64,000 nt of DNA, taken from Schizochytrium sp. TIO01. Its lineage: Eukaryota > Sar > Bigyra > Thraustochytrida > Thraustochytriidae. The notes beneath the pieces were generated by a model. That model was not told where the DNA came from. It was given only the letters and a program-made list of their open reading frames with translations, and ran no database searches. The stretch spans positions 5,756,029-5,820,028 of the forward strand of contig SMSO01000014.1 of assembly GCA_004764695.1 (NCBI GenBank), given 5' to 3'. Positions 1,398-64,000 of this stretch are shown piece by piece. The translations under genes and the position numbers were made by a program. Every line of letters begins with the position of its first letter. The stretch's first letter is position 1.

Positions 1398-2783
1398 ATG
1401 GGGTTTGGGCTCCCAGAAACTATCTTTGGAAAGGATGTAGATGAGGTCTTTGCATACAAGACGAAGCGCATGGTTGCGATCAAGGATCGTCGTTTAGGTA
1501 TTCTCAACTACAGTTTCATGTTCGCCACTCTAATCTATGTGCTCGTGTATCAGATACTCTTTAACACGGGCTATCTACTAATTACCACTCCGTCGGGAAG
1601 CCATCGATTTTCCTTGCGAGCCCTTACGAATGATGTTGGGTGCGACCCCATCGACGATGTTGGCTGCTACACAGTCTCCCCAGATGTACAGTCAACGGAA
1701 TATTGCTCACAGGCGCCAGACGAAAATCAGGGTCTGTGCGTTGCTGAACAATATCTATCAAGCCAAGATGAGCAATGTATGCGAAAACGAGACTGCTCCC
1801 TAGCAGATGAGCTTGATGTGGGTGTAATCGAAGGCAGCGAATTGCTTTTAACTACTCGCATTTTCGAGGTTGCACAGTATAATGCTTGCCCAAACTCAGC
1901 ATCGCAAGCATCAAACTGTGACAGTCTTTGGGAAAATCTTAACGCAACATCGGATTCCTATATTGCTGGTGTTGAAGACTTCACTCTCATGGTCGATCAT
2001 GCTGTAAAGGATAGCAACACCAAATCAGACCTCGCTGGGGTCTCACGTTCCATGAAGGGTGTACTATCTATTCCAAATAATGCTGCACTGTGCCAATCGC
2101 TGGCCAGCCAGAACCGTGTTGTTCGCAGCCCAAAGGGTGTAGCAACGACTACCGCCCCTTGCTTTGTAGACTCTAATTTGCCAGCTGCAGACGACTATGA
2201 TGTTTTCGCTATGACGGAATGGCTTGGCGCTGGTGATCTCGACCTTGATCAGCCATCTGGGTCGAAACCAGGTGAACCTGTGCGTGCGCGAGGAAGCGTT
2301 GTTACATTTACCATTGATTACACCAATGTTCATCCGTGGCTGGGGGCAAGTGATGAAATCTTCTACACGATCTCTGTCGATTTCTTGCCTGGATCATCGT
2401 ATAAAGTGGTCACAAGTAACGATGTTGTTGAGGCAAACTCAACCTTGGGTGTCTCGCGCCGTATTCAAAAGCGATATGGTGTTAAAGTTGTAGTTCTTCA
2501 GACCGGTCGCCTTGGTCAGTTTGATTTTAACACTTTACTTCTTCAACTTGCTGCAGGCTCTGCCTTGTTTGGTCTTTCTGTCCTGTTGACTGACTTTTTA
2601 GCGCTGAGTGTTATGCCCAATAAAGAGCAGTATAAAGCAGCAAAAATTAAAGTCACCGAGGACTTTGGAGATCTTCGCAAGGAACAAAAGCGCCTTCGCA
2701 AAGAGTCTCGCGAGACTGCTGAGTCATCAGACACATCTGCCGTGAACGAGTCTAGTAGTCTCCACACTATCAATGTAGCTTAG
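1398..2783 (+). CDS. P2X-like receptor, trimeric ligand-gated cation channel family
   Basis: A 461-residue single-exon ORF starting at ATG 1398 with P2X architecture: short cytosolic N-terminus, TM1 (about residues 37-57), a large Cys-rich extracellular loop, TM2 (about 383-406) and a charged C-tail. Conserved family marks are the N-terminal Y-x-T-x-R/K site (YKTKR, 20-24), the pre-TM2 block RIQKRYGVKV with its conserved Lys, G-x-x-G-x-F-D, and the TM2 Asp (LTDFLAL, about 399). P2X channels normally open on extracellular ATP, or act on contractile vacuoles in protists. The usual post-TM1 Lys-x-Lys pair and the Asn-Phe-Arg motif of the ATP pocket are not evident, so the ligand is uncertain. 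Loop NxS/T sites (NAT, NST) suit an extracellular or luminal domain. Confidence 0.8.
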   Translation: MGFGLPETIFGKDVDEVFAYKTKRMVAIKDRRLGILNYSFMFATLIYVLVYQILFNTGYLLITTPSGSHRFSLRALTNDVGCDPIDDVGCYTVSPDVQSTEYCSQAPDENQGLCVAEQYLSSQDEQCMRKRDCSLADELDVGVIEGSELLLTTRIFEVAQYNACPNSASQASNCDSLWENLNATSDSYIAGVEDFTLMVDHAVKDSNTKSDLAGVSRSMKGVLSIPNNAALCQSLASQNRVVRSPKGVATTTAPCFVDSNLPAADDYDVFAMTEWLGAGDLDLDQPSGSKPGEPVRARGSVVTFTIDYTNVHPWLGASDEIFYTISVDFLPGSSYKVVTSNDVVEANSTLGVSRRIQKRYGVKVVVLQTGRLGQFDFNTLLLQLAAGSALFGLSVLLTDFLALSVMPNKEQYKAAKIKVTEDFGDLRKEQKRLRKESRETAESSDTSAVNESSSLHTINVA

Positions 2784-3824
2784 ACGTTCTCCTGATTAGT
2801 ACTTTCATGGATGATGTTTTTTCAAACATGTATAGGATTGTGGTTTTAATTTCTGCACAAGCCACAATAAGATTGTTCTAATATTTTGACAACGTGAAAC
2901 ATTCATGTATCCTGCGAAACAACTAAAAGTATTCCTTGATTCGAATCTCACGACCAAATCTCTCTCAGCAATCTTGTCACAACAGCCGAATTCCCATCTA
3001 TAGAAAAACCGCCATGCAACAAACAACTTTGTCGATCAAAATTTTAGATTCATGGCTACAAACAAATCTTATTATCTTGAAGTTTTGCTCTTCCACATTA
3101 GCATGAATTTTCAGTTATCACTTGCCTTACGAAGGGGAAGAATTACCCCAACACGAAAACACGAAAAAAATTAAAAAATGTAAACAAACCAGTACTACTA
3201 GTGGGCAAATAGTGCCTTCTTACGTAACAATACAGGGGAAAATTAAAGAAAGAACAGCAAGAAAAAAAATCACTATATACTCTTATATACAGCTATCTTA
3301 AACTTATAATACTCTCCTCTGAATAGGTATGAATGATCAAAACTAAGAAATTGAGTTGACGTAGTGGAACATGCAAACCATCAATCGCGGCGTTGCCGGC
3401 GAACTCCCAAGGTTTCCGGGAGCGGTCTTCGCCAGACGTATCCTTTCCAGGTCTCCTCCTGAGGTAGAGTTAATCTCCGCCCGCCCTTTCTACTGTCCCT
3501 TTCACCTGTGTAACGAGCGGAGCTTCTCTGTCTCCACTCAAATCTCGAGCGCTGCGCTCCTAGATCACCACGTTTCATCCTTTGTGGCCCTGCTGGAGTT
3601 AGGATCTCCAGAGCGAAAGAGCTTGCGCTTGCGACTTGTGTTTTTCGTATTCATTTTCTTTTCCACGCCTTTCAAAACGCCCGTCACTTTCCTGGCTATT
3701 GTTGCAGTTGCAGTCGTATCTAGGCTTGGCGTCTGAGGTTATTTTTGTATTCGTCGACTTTCAGCTTTCATCTTGAGGCGTCAAGATCTAGCGCAATAAG
3801 TGTTGTTCTAGTGCAGTGGACACC
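2784..3824. other. Intergenic region with the Brr2 5' region
   Basis: About 1 kb between the P2X-like and Brr2 genes. The first part (to about 3360) is AT-rich with A-runs, fitting a 3' UTR and spacer. From about 3370 GC rises toward the Brr2 start, fitting a promoter and 5' UTR. A 121-codon frame at 3371-3736 has no protein-like character and is taken as chance. Confidence 0.45.
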
Positions 3825-6800
3825 ATGGCGGAAGAGCAGGCACGGCAACGTCTCTACGACTACAATGCCAACTCTAATTTGGTAATCAAGACCCACAGCT
3901 CTCGTAGGCAGGTCACAGAACCCTCTGGCGAGGCACAGAGTTTGCGGCAAGGGGTGTCCGTGGCTGACATGGGCTCCAGAGCTAGACCTGAGCGTTCCGC
4001 AGAACTAGAGGCCAAACTCGCCAAGAAACGCGAACGTGAAAGTCGCTTGCAGCAACAAAGTCAGCTTCTCGAAGGGGATCCAAATGGCGGAATGGGCAAC
4101 GTGCATCTGGATGATGACATCTCGCTTGGAGCTTACAGACCGAGCACACGAGAAGCCAGACTTGCTTTTGAGGAACTATTAGCATCGCTTCAAAAGTTTA
4201 TCGGCGATCAGCCACGAGATGTTCTGCATAGCGCTGCAGACGAAGTGCTTGGTATCATCAAGGATCCTGAGCTCACGGCACCTCGCAAGGAAACCGAGTG
4301 CAAGAAACTTCTGGGTAGCAGATTGTCCAAGGTACAATTTACGGACCTTCTCAGACTATGTGAAAGAATCGATGACTACAGCAATAGTAACAATGCTCTA
4401 GATGCAAACCCGAGTGCAACCAAGTCCCAGGCGGATATGGGTGTTGCGGTAGTATTTGAGGGCGATAGCTCCGATGAGTCAGATGAGGAACTCGAGGAGG
4501 TTGTCAGCGACCAAGACTCTAGTGATCAAGACTCTGACGAAGATAGTGGCCCAAACGCTCGTGATGCAGCTCGTAGCAAACGGAAGGGAGCAAGTGGCAC
4601 AACTTCTGCAGACGAAAACGACATCAACGTGCATGATATTGACGCACACTGGATTCAACGCGAACTTGCAAAGTACTACCCTGATGCAAGCGAAGCACAA
4701 AGTCTTGCCTCACAGATTTTCAATGCTCTCAATGAATCAGATGAACGCGCTTGCGAAAATCAGTTAGTTCTTTTGCTTCAATTTGACAAGTTTGACCTCA
4801 TCAAACTCCTTTTGCATAATCGCAAAAAGATTCTCTTCTGCACTCGTCTTAAACGTGCTGGTTCTGATGAAGAACGTGCTCTCATCGAGAGGGAGATGAT
4901 GCAAGATCGTGAAGTTGGAGGCGGCAAAGACATTTTGAAAATGCTTGCTGATCCTTCAGGAAACCCGCCCATTACCGCAAACGGTCAGCAGAGCTCTGGT
5001 GCTGGCGCCAAAAAGGCCAACGCTATTCTTGTTCGTGACGCTGACGAGGACGTCATGAACTCTGAAGATGACGACAGTGATGCCGAAGGAGGTAGCGGGG
5101 CAATGAGGAGCGCACGCCTTCGCGGGGATGTGGAGTCAGTGCGGCCGCCAAAGCGTCTTGATCTCCAAGCCCTTGCTTTTAGTGCTGGCGATCATACAAT
5201 GACCAACAAGGAAGTTCGTGTGAAAGGTGCCCGATGGACCAAGGAAACCAAAGCTTTTAAGGAAGTTCATGTGCCACCACTTAAACCCAAGCCATTTCTC
5301 GAAGATGAGAAACTTTGTGCGATTAATGAACTCCCAAGTTTTACGCATGGAGCCTTTGCCAAGATGACAACTCTCAATCGTGTGCAGTCCCGCATCATGC
5401 CCGCGGCTCTCAAAGGTGATTACAACCTTCTTGTATGCGCCCCCACTGGTGCTGGTAAAACTAATGTAGCTATGCTTACTGTCCTGCACGAGATTGGTAA
5501 GTTTGTGGACCCAGCGACCGGCAAAGTTGATATTCCCCGCATGAAAAGGGAAATGAAAATTGTGTATGTCGCACCAATGAAGGCTCTTGTCCAGGAGGTT
5601 GTCCAAAACTTTGGCCAGCGCCTTGGCGCCGCATACGATTTAACTGTTCGCGAACTATCTGGTGATCAGCAGCTGAGCCGTGCTGAAATTGCACAGACTC
5701 AGATGATTGTCACAACTCCAGAAAAGTGGGATATTGTGACACGTAAAGCTGGTGAACGAGCTTACACCCAGCTCGTCAAACTCGTCATTATCGATGAAAT
5801 TCACCTTCTTCACAATGAACGTGGTGCTGTGCTTGAAGCCATCATCGCTCGAGCTATTCGCCAGCAAGAGATTACACAACAACGTGTTCGCCTCGTTGGT
5901 ATCTCTGCAACTCTTCCCAACTACAAAGATGTTGCTACCTTTCTCCGAGTTCCTTTTGACAAGGGTCTCTTCTTCTTTGACAATTCGTTTCGCCCTGTTC
6001 CTCTTCAGCAACAATATATTGGTATCACTGAAACAAAGCCTTTGCGGCGCTTGCAAAAAGCGAATGAAATTTGCTATGATAAGATTATTGCTGCAATGGA
6101 AAATAATCCTCGTGATCAAGTTTTGGTGTTTGTACACAGTCGCAAAGACACCGCTTCTACCGCACGATACCTTCGTGATCTAGCCGAGGAGCGTGACCAG
6201 CTGGGTATCTTCTTGAATTCGGACGACCGTGCGACCAGAGAGATTCTGCAAAGCTCCGTGGAAGAGGAAGCACGAAACGCTGACCTCAAGGATATGCTTC
6301 TCCATGGCCTTGCAGTACACCACGCTGGTCTTCCGCGCTCGGATCGTACACTTGTCGAGGATCTCTTCAAACGTGGATATATTAAGGTTCTTGTGTGTAC
6401 AGCCACTCTGGCTTGGGGTGTAAATTTGCCTGCTCACACTGTCATTATCAAGGGTACCCAAGTGTATAATCCTGAGAAGGGTCGCTGGACAGAGCTTTCT
6501 CAGCTAGATATTTTGCAAATGCTTGGCCGCGCTGGTCGCCCTCAATTCGAGACAGACACTGAAGGTGAGGGCATTATTATCACTTCCCATGCAGAGCTGC
6601 AATTCTATTTGTCCTTGCTTAATGAGCAGCTCCCTGTCGAGTCACAGCTTATCCGTCGCCTTGCAGATGCTCTCAATGCCGAGATTGTCATGGGTGGTGT
6701 GCAGAATCTTGACGATGGTGCCCACTGGCTTGGCTACACATACCTCTATGTCCGCATGTTGCGCAGCCCTACCCAATACGGCATTTCCATTGATGAAATC

Positions 6801-55024: not shown

Positions 55025-55048
55025 TGCGGTCTCCGCGGATCGAACGCA

Positions 55049-62575: not shown

Positions 62576-62732
62576 ATGTTTAACATTAGATGTTTACAAA
62601 AAGAGCAATTGAACATATATACCTACTCTAACAATATGGAATAAGCTATACAAATAAAATCGGTGGAAATATATAACCTCCAAATAGTACTAGTGTCTCT
62701 TAGATTTTAAACTACAAAATTTGCAAAACTTG

Positions 62733-62798
62733 CATTTCATAGAAGGAGCTAAGACTCCATCACGGACTAGTTAGACTAACCCGCGACTCAATGAAATG
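62733..62798 (-). ncRNA. Candidate Fanzor guide-RNA scaffold (predicted structure)
   Basis: On the minus strand, just after the Fanzor stop, an 8-bp outer stem (CATTTCAT 62733-62740 with ATGAAATG 62791-62798) encloses two hairpins: 62764-62782 (8 bp with two G-U pairs, 3-nt loop) and 62745-62758 (GGAG/CTCC, 6-nt loop). TnpB and Fanzor guide RNAs arise from the 3' end of the nuclease gene, so position and strand fit. Structure was found by eye only, and a competing hairpin (62796-62802 with 62808-62814) overlaps its edge. Confidence 0.4.
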
Positions 62799-62805
62799 AT
62801 TTTTT

Positions 62806-64000
62806 TTAAATCATGTCCTTGGATAGGTAGCGTAAAAGGATGCCTCTTGCGGCATGGACATCACGGTCTGCTACATGGTTGCACTTGAGATTAGGGCATT
62901 GGAAAACCTTGGATGCCCCGAGTTTATGGTGGAGGGTACCGCACTCATTGCATGTTTTTGAAGTGTAGCTCTCTTGGCAAAGAACAAGCTTGCACCACGG
63001 GAACATCTCAGCCTTATGAATGAGAGCCTGGCGGAACCCAAAATGGGACCAACGACACATCATTCGAACAGACTTCTTGGATATCCGTCGCTCCATCCTC
63101 CTGCTCATCTTAGAGGTTTCGAATTTAGGCAAGAGAATAACACGATAGTTTTCACAAAGCCAAAGCGCGAGCTTGCGGTGAATCTCAGTGATCTTGTTCT
63201 TGATCTTGAGTTGGGCGCGATAGAAGGCGCGCTTCAAGGGGGTGTTGAAATCGTATGCAGTTTTCTTTTTATTTTCTTGAGCTTTATCAATCCTGCTTTG
63301 GATCTTATCAACGCGGCGACAGAGATAGAATATGGTTCTAAAATCTTTCCCTGTGCCCCATTCAATGGCGCGGCCATCAGCATCATACATCGTCTGAAAC
63401 GAGCGAACACCTGGATCTAGAGCAATGACACTGTGGTGCGCCTTGGGTGCCTGGTCCATTGGACGCTTTTCTTCTTCTCGTAAGAAGCAGAAGTACACAT
63501 GCCCAAGGCGATTCATTTGCACACGCATGGCGTTCTTAATCTGACTGGGGAACTTTTCTTTGCGCGTACGAAACTCTTTTAGAAAGCTGGTGGTCTTTGA
63601 TTTCTCCGTATTCCAGATACGTGCGTTCACTTCGAAAATCTGTGATTCATCACGCTTGGTCCGAAACTTATAAAAAGATTGCTCATGAACTTTCTTTTGT
63701 ACAGCGAGTTCTTCGTTTTTGGCTCGTCCAGAGTTAAGAGCCTTGAAGAAATCCAGAATCCCGGAATCACGGATAGCCTGTGGGACCTCGAGAACCCATT
63801 CAGGAGCATCATGCCTTTCTTTAGATCGAACGGCTTTCTTTTCTCCATAGAGGGCACCATACGTTTGGGGATTCCCATCTTCATCTACTAAAACCTGCTT
63901 CGTCTTGGAATCCTTTTTGATGCACGCTTCTTGATGCAATTTGATGGCTTCTTCATCGCCCTTCGCCACGTCTCGGTGAAACGCAACGCCAGTATTGTAG
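62806..64000 (-). CDS. Fanzor, eukaryotic TnpB-like RNA-guided nuclease (N-terminus outside window)
   Basis: The minus frame is open from the window edge to TAA 62806 (about 398 codons seen). The GTG at 63969 is not a start: the frame continues to 64000 with NTGVAFHRDVAKG. RuvC-like nuclease motifs are complete: ALDPGVRSF with Asp at 63415-63417 (RuvC-I), VILLPKFE with Glu at 63118-63120 (RuvC-II), zinc ribbon CNEC...CPNLKC, and ADRDVHAARGI (RuvC-III Asp). ESYTSKTCNECG is the TnpB/Fanzor hallmark before the ribbon. Fanzors are transposon-encoded nucleases that cut DNA guided by an RNA from their own 3' end. No frame break is seen, so it may be functional. Subfamily (Fanzor1 or 2) and any partner transposase lie outside what can be seen. 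Confidence 0.9.
   Translation of the reverse strand, partial: YNTGVAFHRDVAKGDEEAIKLHQEACIKKDSKTKQVLVDEDGNPQTYGALYGEKKAVRSKERHDAPEWVLEVPQAIRDSGILDFFKALNSGRAKNEELAVQKKVHEQSFYKFRTKRDESQIFEVNARIWNTEKSKTTSFLKEFRTRKEKFPSQIKNAMRVQMNRLGHVYFCFLREEEKRPMDQAPKAHHSVIALDPGVRSFQTMYDADGRAIEWGTGKDFRTIFYLCRRVDKIQSRIDKAQENKKKTAYDFNTPLKRAFYRAQLKIKNKITEIHRKLALWLCENYRVILLPKFETSKMSRRMERRISKKSVRMMCRWSHFGFRQALIHKAEMFPWCKLVLCQESYTSKTCNECGTLHHKLGASKVFQCPNLKCNHVADRDVHAARGILLRYLSKDMI

Follow-up and report, generated by a model that had tools for sequence, protein, structure and literature searches.

Fanzors are RNA-guided nucleases of eukaryotes. IS607 elements carrying Fanzor2 have been reported in eukaryotes and giant viruses, among them ACa-1, CRv-1, and ISvMimi (Bao and Jurka 2013, PMC3627910; Yoon 2023, PMC10711439). 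The accessible part of the latter source gives the Fanzor fingerprint as a DPG motif plus a RuvC2 glutamate located six residues before the zinc ribbon (PMC10711439), and a pseudoknot is reported, in texts accessible in part, for the RNAs of TnpB and Fanzor2. IS607 elements exchange 2 bp, with GG as the core, and carry "two orfs, which often overlap" (PMC6188088), and their coding regions are elsewhere described as overlapping or separate (PMC9956272); the accessible portions of these two texts give no lengths. Any overlap between the nuclease and tnpA frames goes unmentioned in the available text of PMC3627910 and PMC10711439, from which the word "overlap" is absent, and no description of an overlap running through tnpA was found in the available text of these two papers or of PMC10432273, PMC11423790, PMC7262427, PMC6188088, PMC11061315, and PMC9956272. 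Searches of the openly available literature gave, among the results listed, nothing on TnpB overprinting or overlapping genes, and a search for Fanzor in thraustochytrids found no literature.

The minus strand of the window (the whole stretch of 64,000 nucleotides that was analyzed) is open for 397 codons between positions 62806 and 63999 and then runs off the window edge, in line with the original prediction of an intact Fanzor with about 398 visible codons. The reading frame and the profile searches identified this segment as the C-terminal 397 codons and the stop of a Fanzor2 frame. Upstream extension, which had been proposed as a check of the unbroken frame, met neither a stop nor a frameshift: the Fanzor frame reaches C13:5820822 and has 662 codons in total, the remainder lying beyond the window. 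The predicted kinship with TnpB was borne out by the Pfam profile Cas12f1-like_TNB (PF07282; 51.2 bits, above the cut-off of 26.3), and the Fanzor part also matched HTH_OrfB_IS605 in Pfam. The score against the NCBIfam model guided_TnpB (NF040570) was just below the threshold (93.1 bits versus the required 100), and the IS607_TnpB exception model was clearly missed (62.3 of 350 bits). The genome holds 34 matches to the Cas12f1-like_TNB domain, and the Fanzor cores of 12 chosen copy pairs showed dN/dS values of 0.21 to 0.49; the domain is therefore more than a chance match. The best solved relative by sequence was the TnpB-like protein L79 (PDB 9b0l; partial match, E = 5.1e-19), which we take to be from Mimivirus, and whose chain has about 118 residues ahead of the homologous start.

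The three RuvC acidic residues and the complete zinc ribbon claimed for this protein were recovered as invariant columns of an alignment of 26 sequences (the window protein and 25 relatives). They correspond to the catalytic aspartate D195 in the DPG motif (LDPGVR; 63415..63417, minus strand), the catalytic glutamate E343 in the alternative position (62971..62973, minus strand), the catalytic aspartate D380 (62860..62862, minus strand), and cysteines C350, C353, C368, and C373, which form the CxxC and CxxxxC pairs (62881..62952, minus strand; profile and alignment). R379 was also invariant. E343 lies six residues ahead of the ribbon (ESYTSKTCNEC) and corresponds to the glutamate of the Fanzor fingerprint; the glutamate of LLPKFE was not invariant in a four-sequence alignment. 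The DPG motif in RuvC1, the alternative glutamate, the adjoining IS607 transposase gene, and the lack of terminal repeats upon inspection of the ends of the window element lead us to assign the protein to Fanzor type 2. Fanzor1 was ruled out by the absence of terminal inverted repeats and target duplication at the element, and IS200/IS605 was rejected after searches of the two element proteins in Pfam and NCBIfam gave no match to a Y1 HUH transposase.

The Fanzor2 frame is part of a 2.2-kb IS607-type element (locus L009, about 2726-4937) encoding its own serine transposase, TnpA. The in-window part occupies 62697..64000 on the minus strand, and about 0.9 kb more lies beyond the right edge. The second frame encodes 232 residues matching the IS607 transposase model NF033518 (144.6 bits, cut-off 110), and resolvase and HTH domain matches were also found by profile search. 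The element has neither terminal inverted repeats nor a long target duplication, and its 2-bp core is AG instead of GG. The right end reads CTAAGAG in 17 of 18 copies and CTAGGAG in one, and the next base was A or T in all 18. Nineteen left ends were compared, 17 of them from the 18 copies and two additional ones; 15 had a CAG no more than 21 nt to the left of their conserved block, versus 28% of control windows, and four had none. A search with the joined flanks of 13 copies revealed paralogous empty sites for two of them, L015 and the window element. Both are consistent with integration at (C)AG^W in which the AG doublet alone is present at each side, and the empty paralogs of L015 carry AA in place of AG at the occupied site. 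From these observed ends and empty sites we infer that the TnpA serine recombinase would mobilize the element at (C)AG^W sites, the exchange taking place across the 2-bp AG core.

An older copy of the same family, in inverted orientation, has the window element inserted in its left end. Older, diverged copies adjoin three young ones (L017, 1968-2615; L025, 3748-4384; L009, about 4961-6326). Left junctions were variable in general across copies, and in L020 the usual terminal bases of the left end, near position 2805, are replaced by 11 nt that repeat the right flank. These ragged left ends and the 5'-truncated copy L012 prompted us to consider retrotransposition, which was rejected: neither a tail nor a long target duplication is present, nothing but the AG core appears at the empty sites, and a TnpA of IS607 type is encoded within the element.

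The genome (64 Mb, 37 contigs) carries a family of such copies. Among the 20 loci fetched, 18 had a copy aligning over the element, and L026 and L028 had only older, diverged ones. A single uninterrupted frame of 615 to 682 codons running through the Fanzor C terminus was found in 14 of the 20 loci, including that of the window element, which had been described as undecayed. This intactness was taken from the frame scan, since the alignment-based count is too low (gaps in A-runs fall in the stop). The frame of L021 extends past the usual stop. The closest copy to the window element shares 99.6% DNA identity with it. The flanks of the young copies differ, indicating a recently mobile family. 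The tnpA gene is intact in 9 of 18 copies; it is broken in L013, L014, L016, L018, and L022, where the Fanzor frame is open, while L012 is without the 5' part and L020 has tnpA present and the Fanzor broken. For the same 12 copy pairs, dN/dS of tnpA was 0.31 to 0.62. Judging by these open frames, together with the purifying selection and the recent amplification, the window Fanzor may be active as an RNA-guided nuclease. The 14 uninterrupted Fanzor2 frames, the paired TnpA, the defined ends, and the predicted CAG target allow a direct test of what a Fanzor naturally does in transposition.

Copies L014, L016, and L018 form a subfamily whose tnpA carries the same insertion, about 295 bp long and with TAACC repeats; further left ends of this subfamily lie at C13:2774504 and C13:5455775. 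Because these copies have different flanks, this subfamily has spread without an intact tnpA of its own. A spliced intron was rejected as an explanation of the insertion, since no GT start was found at its edge and tnpA has stops in these copies. In alignment A1 (columns about 60-112 and 276-296), copies differ blockwise, QTYGALYGEKKAVRS versus KTHRALGGELNAVRY, as if they were mosaics made by recombination.

The final 109 nt of the element are noncoding (62697..62805, minus strand) and form the predicted scaffold of a guide RNA (reRNA), with stem-loops and a TCTTAG/CTAAGA pseudoknot, ending in CTAAGAG; the host flank, starting at 62696, is the predicted source of the guide. On 18 right ends, RNAalifold had the terminal CTAAGA pair with TCTTAG, a predicted pairing that corresponds to the pseudoknot of the known RNAs; none of 35 pairs showed a double-sided change. 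An alignment of 18 right ends, young and old, chosen among 35, was used for pairing and covariation. Pairing was possible in 87.7% of cells, versus 34 to 48% in slid controls. Double changes occurred in 10 cells (4.7 in shuffles; reached by 2 of 500) and in 6 pairs (3.2 in shuffles; reached by 24 of 500), and further pair types at the right end showed no excess over shuffles (266 of 500). The modeled right-end structure is well supported by pairing and modestly so by covariation. A guide RNA with stem-loops and a pseudoknot is probably made from this end, as predicted for Fanzor2. By analogy with characterized TnpB and Fanzor systems, such a guide would be built from the structured right end and the adjoining host sequence, and Fanzor2 would cut the unoccupied site beside a CAG-like motif, favoring retention or copying of the element.

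Judged by its sequence, the locus is a Fanzor2 in a young IS607-type element of a eukaryotic nuclear genome, a kind already known. It shares with the described Fanzor2 IS607 elements the TnpA-type serine recombinase, the lack of terminal inverted repeats and target site duplications, the DPG motif with the alternative glutamate, and the right-end pseudoknot RNA (here predicted), and differs from them in its host, its larger set of uninterrupted copies, and its mapped empty sites. The cyanobacterial pro-Fanzors (PMC10711439, accessible in part) have the same fingerprint, a partner TnpA, and the +1 overprinting described below, but they are bacterial and only 28 to 42% identical in protein sequence in the best segments. 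Ordinary IS607 elements (e.g., L137, L138, and L140) have the same two-gene layout and a serine recombinase. In contrast, they do not keep the +1 frame of tnpA open, and 6 of 7 annotated pairs overlap by 4 to 50 nt, the seventh not at all.

Relatives were collected with a profile built from the window protein family, a cyanophage protein, and a cyanobacterial protein; earlier, narrower profiles had recovered none. It was run against contigs of prokaryotic genomes, a collection without eukaryotes, and against viral contigs. Relatives were encoded in 114 of 165 prokaryotic contig stretches. The 80 kept comprised 79 with cyanobacterial titles (names as read) and one from a Caldilineales MAG, and the viral contigs gave seven matching loci. 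Among the 90 loci examined, 84 had DPG and the alternative glutamate, and 76 had a tnpA in the available flank. A tree was built from 93 sequences, after 11 loci had been excluded manually and duplicates removed, and with 9 of 14 viral loci of the alternative-glutamate type used. In it, the copies of this genome fell in a clade of 84 tips with a support of 0.911, which included none of the 9 ordinary outgroup TnpBs. Their nearest relative was L129 (support, 0.86). This locus (2198-3655), on a viral contig of 175 kb, is a solo gene of Fanzor-like type, with no convincing tnpA nearby.

The nuclease frame of these elements overlaps tnpA to an extent that has, to our knowledge, not been described across the Fanzor2 lineage (707 nt in L023). 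Of 54 loci that have a long tnpA, 52 carry the tnpB frame in +1 relative to tnpA, and this frame is open through most or all of the gene. The expected number of stops was obtained by shuffling synonymous codons within each tnpA, which keeps amino acids and codon usage. Over the 54 loci, which include three near-identical viral copies and many related ones and are thus not independent, 22 stops of the tnpB frame were observed inside tnpA versus 220.3 expected, with P < 0.05 in 48. There were zero stops in 35 of 54 loci in the run including the window element, which itself has 0 versus 3.4 expected. In the exceptions L054, L088, L102, and L111 the tnpB frame opens more than 150 nt into tnpA, and L088 and L111 are not in +1.

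Controls did not show this pattern. The +1 frame of the tnpB core had 1,259 stops versus 1,155.2 expected, and that of 210 other genes on the same contigs had 4,156 versus 4,070.4 (10 genes with P < 0.05, none fully open). The +2 frame of tnpA was not depleted (means of 12.9 and 13.6), nor was the +1 frame of 12 ordinary IS607 tnpA genes, taken from 25 listed matches (111 versus 118.4, none with P < 0.05). Some depletion was found in the +2 frame of the 210 neighboring genes (4,512 versus 4,782.4, P < 0.05 in 33), and two of the 12 ordinary tnpA genes had P < 0.05 in +2. A second set of 45 viral loci, from which 12 were dropped as duplicate, short, or running off, was sorted by inspection, since pattern sorting misses proteins with lost ribbon cysteines. 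Its 14 alternative-glutamate loci, among which the near-identical L165 and L168 lie on contigs also represented in the first set, had 26 stops versus 72.1 expected (P < 0.05 in 9), while the 15 loci with another tnpB showed no depletion (169 versus 161.4) and the 4 without tnpB had 34 versus 44.3. In statistical terms, these counts argue strongly for selection on the nuclease frame inside tnpA.

The dN/dS of the overprinted frame within the eukaryotic copies (0.16 to 0.99) was not convincing alone, so we turned to the relatives. In 22 related, nonindependent pairs, dS was lower in tnpA than in the tnpB core in 21 (median dS ratio of tnpA to tnpB, 0.46), and the dN/dS of the tnpB frame inside tnpA was 0.68 (above 1 in 4 pairs), versus 1.65 when the tnpB core was read with an equal frame shift. 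The loci where tnpA has decayed were also informative. Nine loci with at least three tnpA stops (L050, L052, L055, L068, L072, L075, L085, L087, and L106) together had 39 stops in the frame of tnpA and 89 in the third frame, compared with 2 in that of tnpB; we relied on these because a lone stop may simply be where tnpA naturally ends. Among 70 loci (16 having been dropped), 31 were free of tnpB-frame stops along the entire region homologous to tnpA, part of which can lie ahead of the point where the frame opens; L105 had 12.

The first ATG lies at most 10 codons from the frame opening in 70% of 50 loci versus 19% expected, and in 26 of the 50 it is 7 to 22 nt after the first ATG of tnpA. In all 11 copies with an intact early tnpA (a subset of the 18, the others having indels, the insertion, or a truncation), the tnpA ATG is followed next by one in the Fanzor frame. 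Leaky scanning would fit this order of AUGs, but the strong context of the tnpA AUG (AnnAUGG) and the presence of other AUGs upstream count against it, and an internal promoter for the long form of the nuclease is an admissible alternative. The nuclease frame would start near the start of tnpA and not after it, and we infer that the +1 overprint adds an N-terminal extension of about 200 residues. The extension of the window family matched a profile of the relatives' extensions (E = 2.5e-20, partly from shared TnpA residues) and carries a PYW...SWF motif. The 12 extensions of alignment A9 had no convincing match in the PDB (best E = 0.064), one edge match in Pfam, and none in PHROGs. The full extension profile did not match L129, where a possible PYW...SWF motif is weak (8.9 bits versus 8.7 for the best shuffle, with only 11 of 500 shuffles scoring high enough to be reported). 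Since the frame survives the decay of tnpA, our guess is that the extension would be an auxiliary domain of the nuclease rather than a link to TnpA.

The reading that we favor, with a probability of about 0.8, is that of a young IS607 transposon with a Fanzor2, moving by exchange over an AG core, drawing its guide from the right end, and bearing an overprinted extension. Bacterial contamination or a misassembled bacterial contig hardly comes into consideration as the source of the copies: their nearest relatives in the prokaryote-only contig collection are indeed cyanobacterial, but at just 28 to 42% protein identity, whereas right ends of at least 85% identity are spread over 12 contigs of the 64-Mb genome, older decayed copies reside in the same genome, and the window copy lies beside tRNA-Phe genes. 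It is also unlikely that the open frame inside tnpA is an untranslated by-product of the amino acid and codon make-up of TnpA, with the nuclease starting downstream. TnpA residues do fix much of the +1 frame, from which the shared PYW/SWF motif partly follows, and RefSeq starts the Trichormus TnpB at 2004, the frame opening at 1476. Yet the shuffles preserve amino acids and codon usage, there is no depletion in the ordinary IS607 tnpA genes or in the 15 viral loci with other tnpB, and the frame is nearly open where tnpA has decayed.

A programmed frameshift early in tnpA, by which the open frame would serve a TnpA-TnpB fusion, seems to us quite improbable. A frame open from near the start of tnpA would serve such an early shift equally, and the +1 relation is fixed in 52 of 54 loci; however, the strong enrichment of ATG near the opening of the tnpB frame is not needed by a fusion, and this frame is kept although tnpA has decayed. 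Returning to the overprinted extension, we lean toward the wider view that the whole pro-Fanzor/Fanzor2 lineage makes a long nuclease that has not been described, its domain of about 200 residues being overprinted on the transposase gene already in the bacterial ancestor, carried into eukaryotes and viruses, and outliving the transposase, perhaps even in the solo gene of L129. If the lineage from which Fanzors come carries a conserved extension that can escape annotation, proteins made from the starts as annotated may be missing a functional portion; if true, this same-strand overlap spanning nearly the whole second gene would be a testable case.

Several other observations were made along the way. 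In the Microcoleus phage My-WqHQDG (L046, 1799-3484), a Fanzor-like protein of 561 amino acids, annotated as hypothetical, starts where the overprinted frame has its first ATG, and the overlapping tnpA is unannotated. Viral loci L156 to L159 and L161 to L163 have TnpB-like alternative-glutamate frames in which zinc ribbon cysteines have been lost (e.g., TSKTHPQTGEI) and the RD motif is kept. The genome encodes a PfaA-type PUFA synthase (1,157.4 bits including neighbors in frame, cut-off 1,010.1). Synthases of this kind mark thraustochytrids, so that a host from this group is likely, which lends the original placement in a protist indirect support. Between positions 55025 and 62575 of the window, a 7.5-kb stretch of the minus strand carries nine tRNA-Phe(GAA) genes that score equally in Rfam; the last of them adjoins the Fanzor element.
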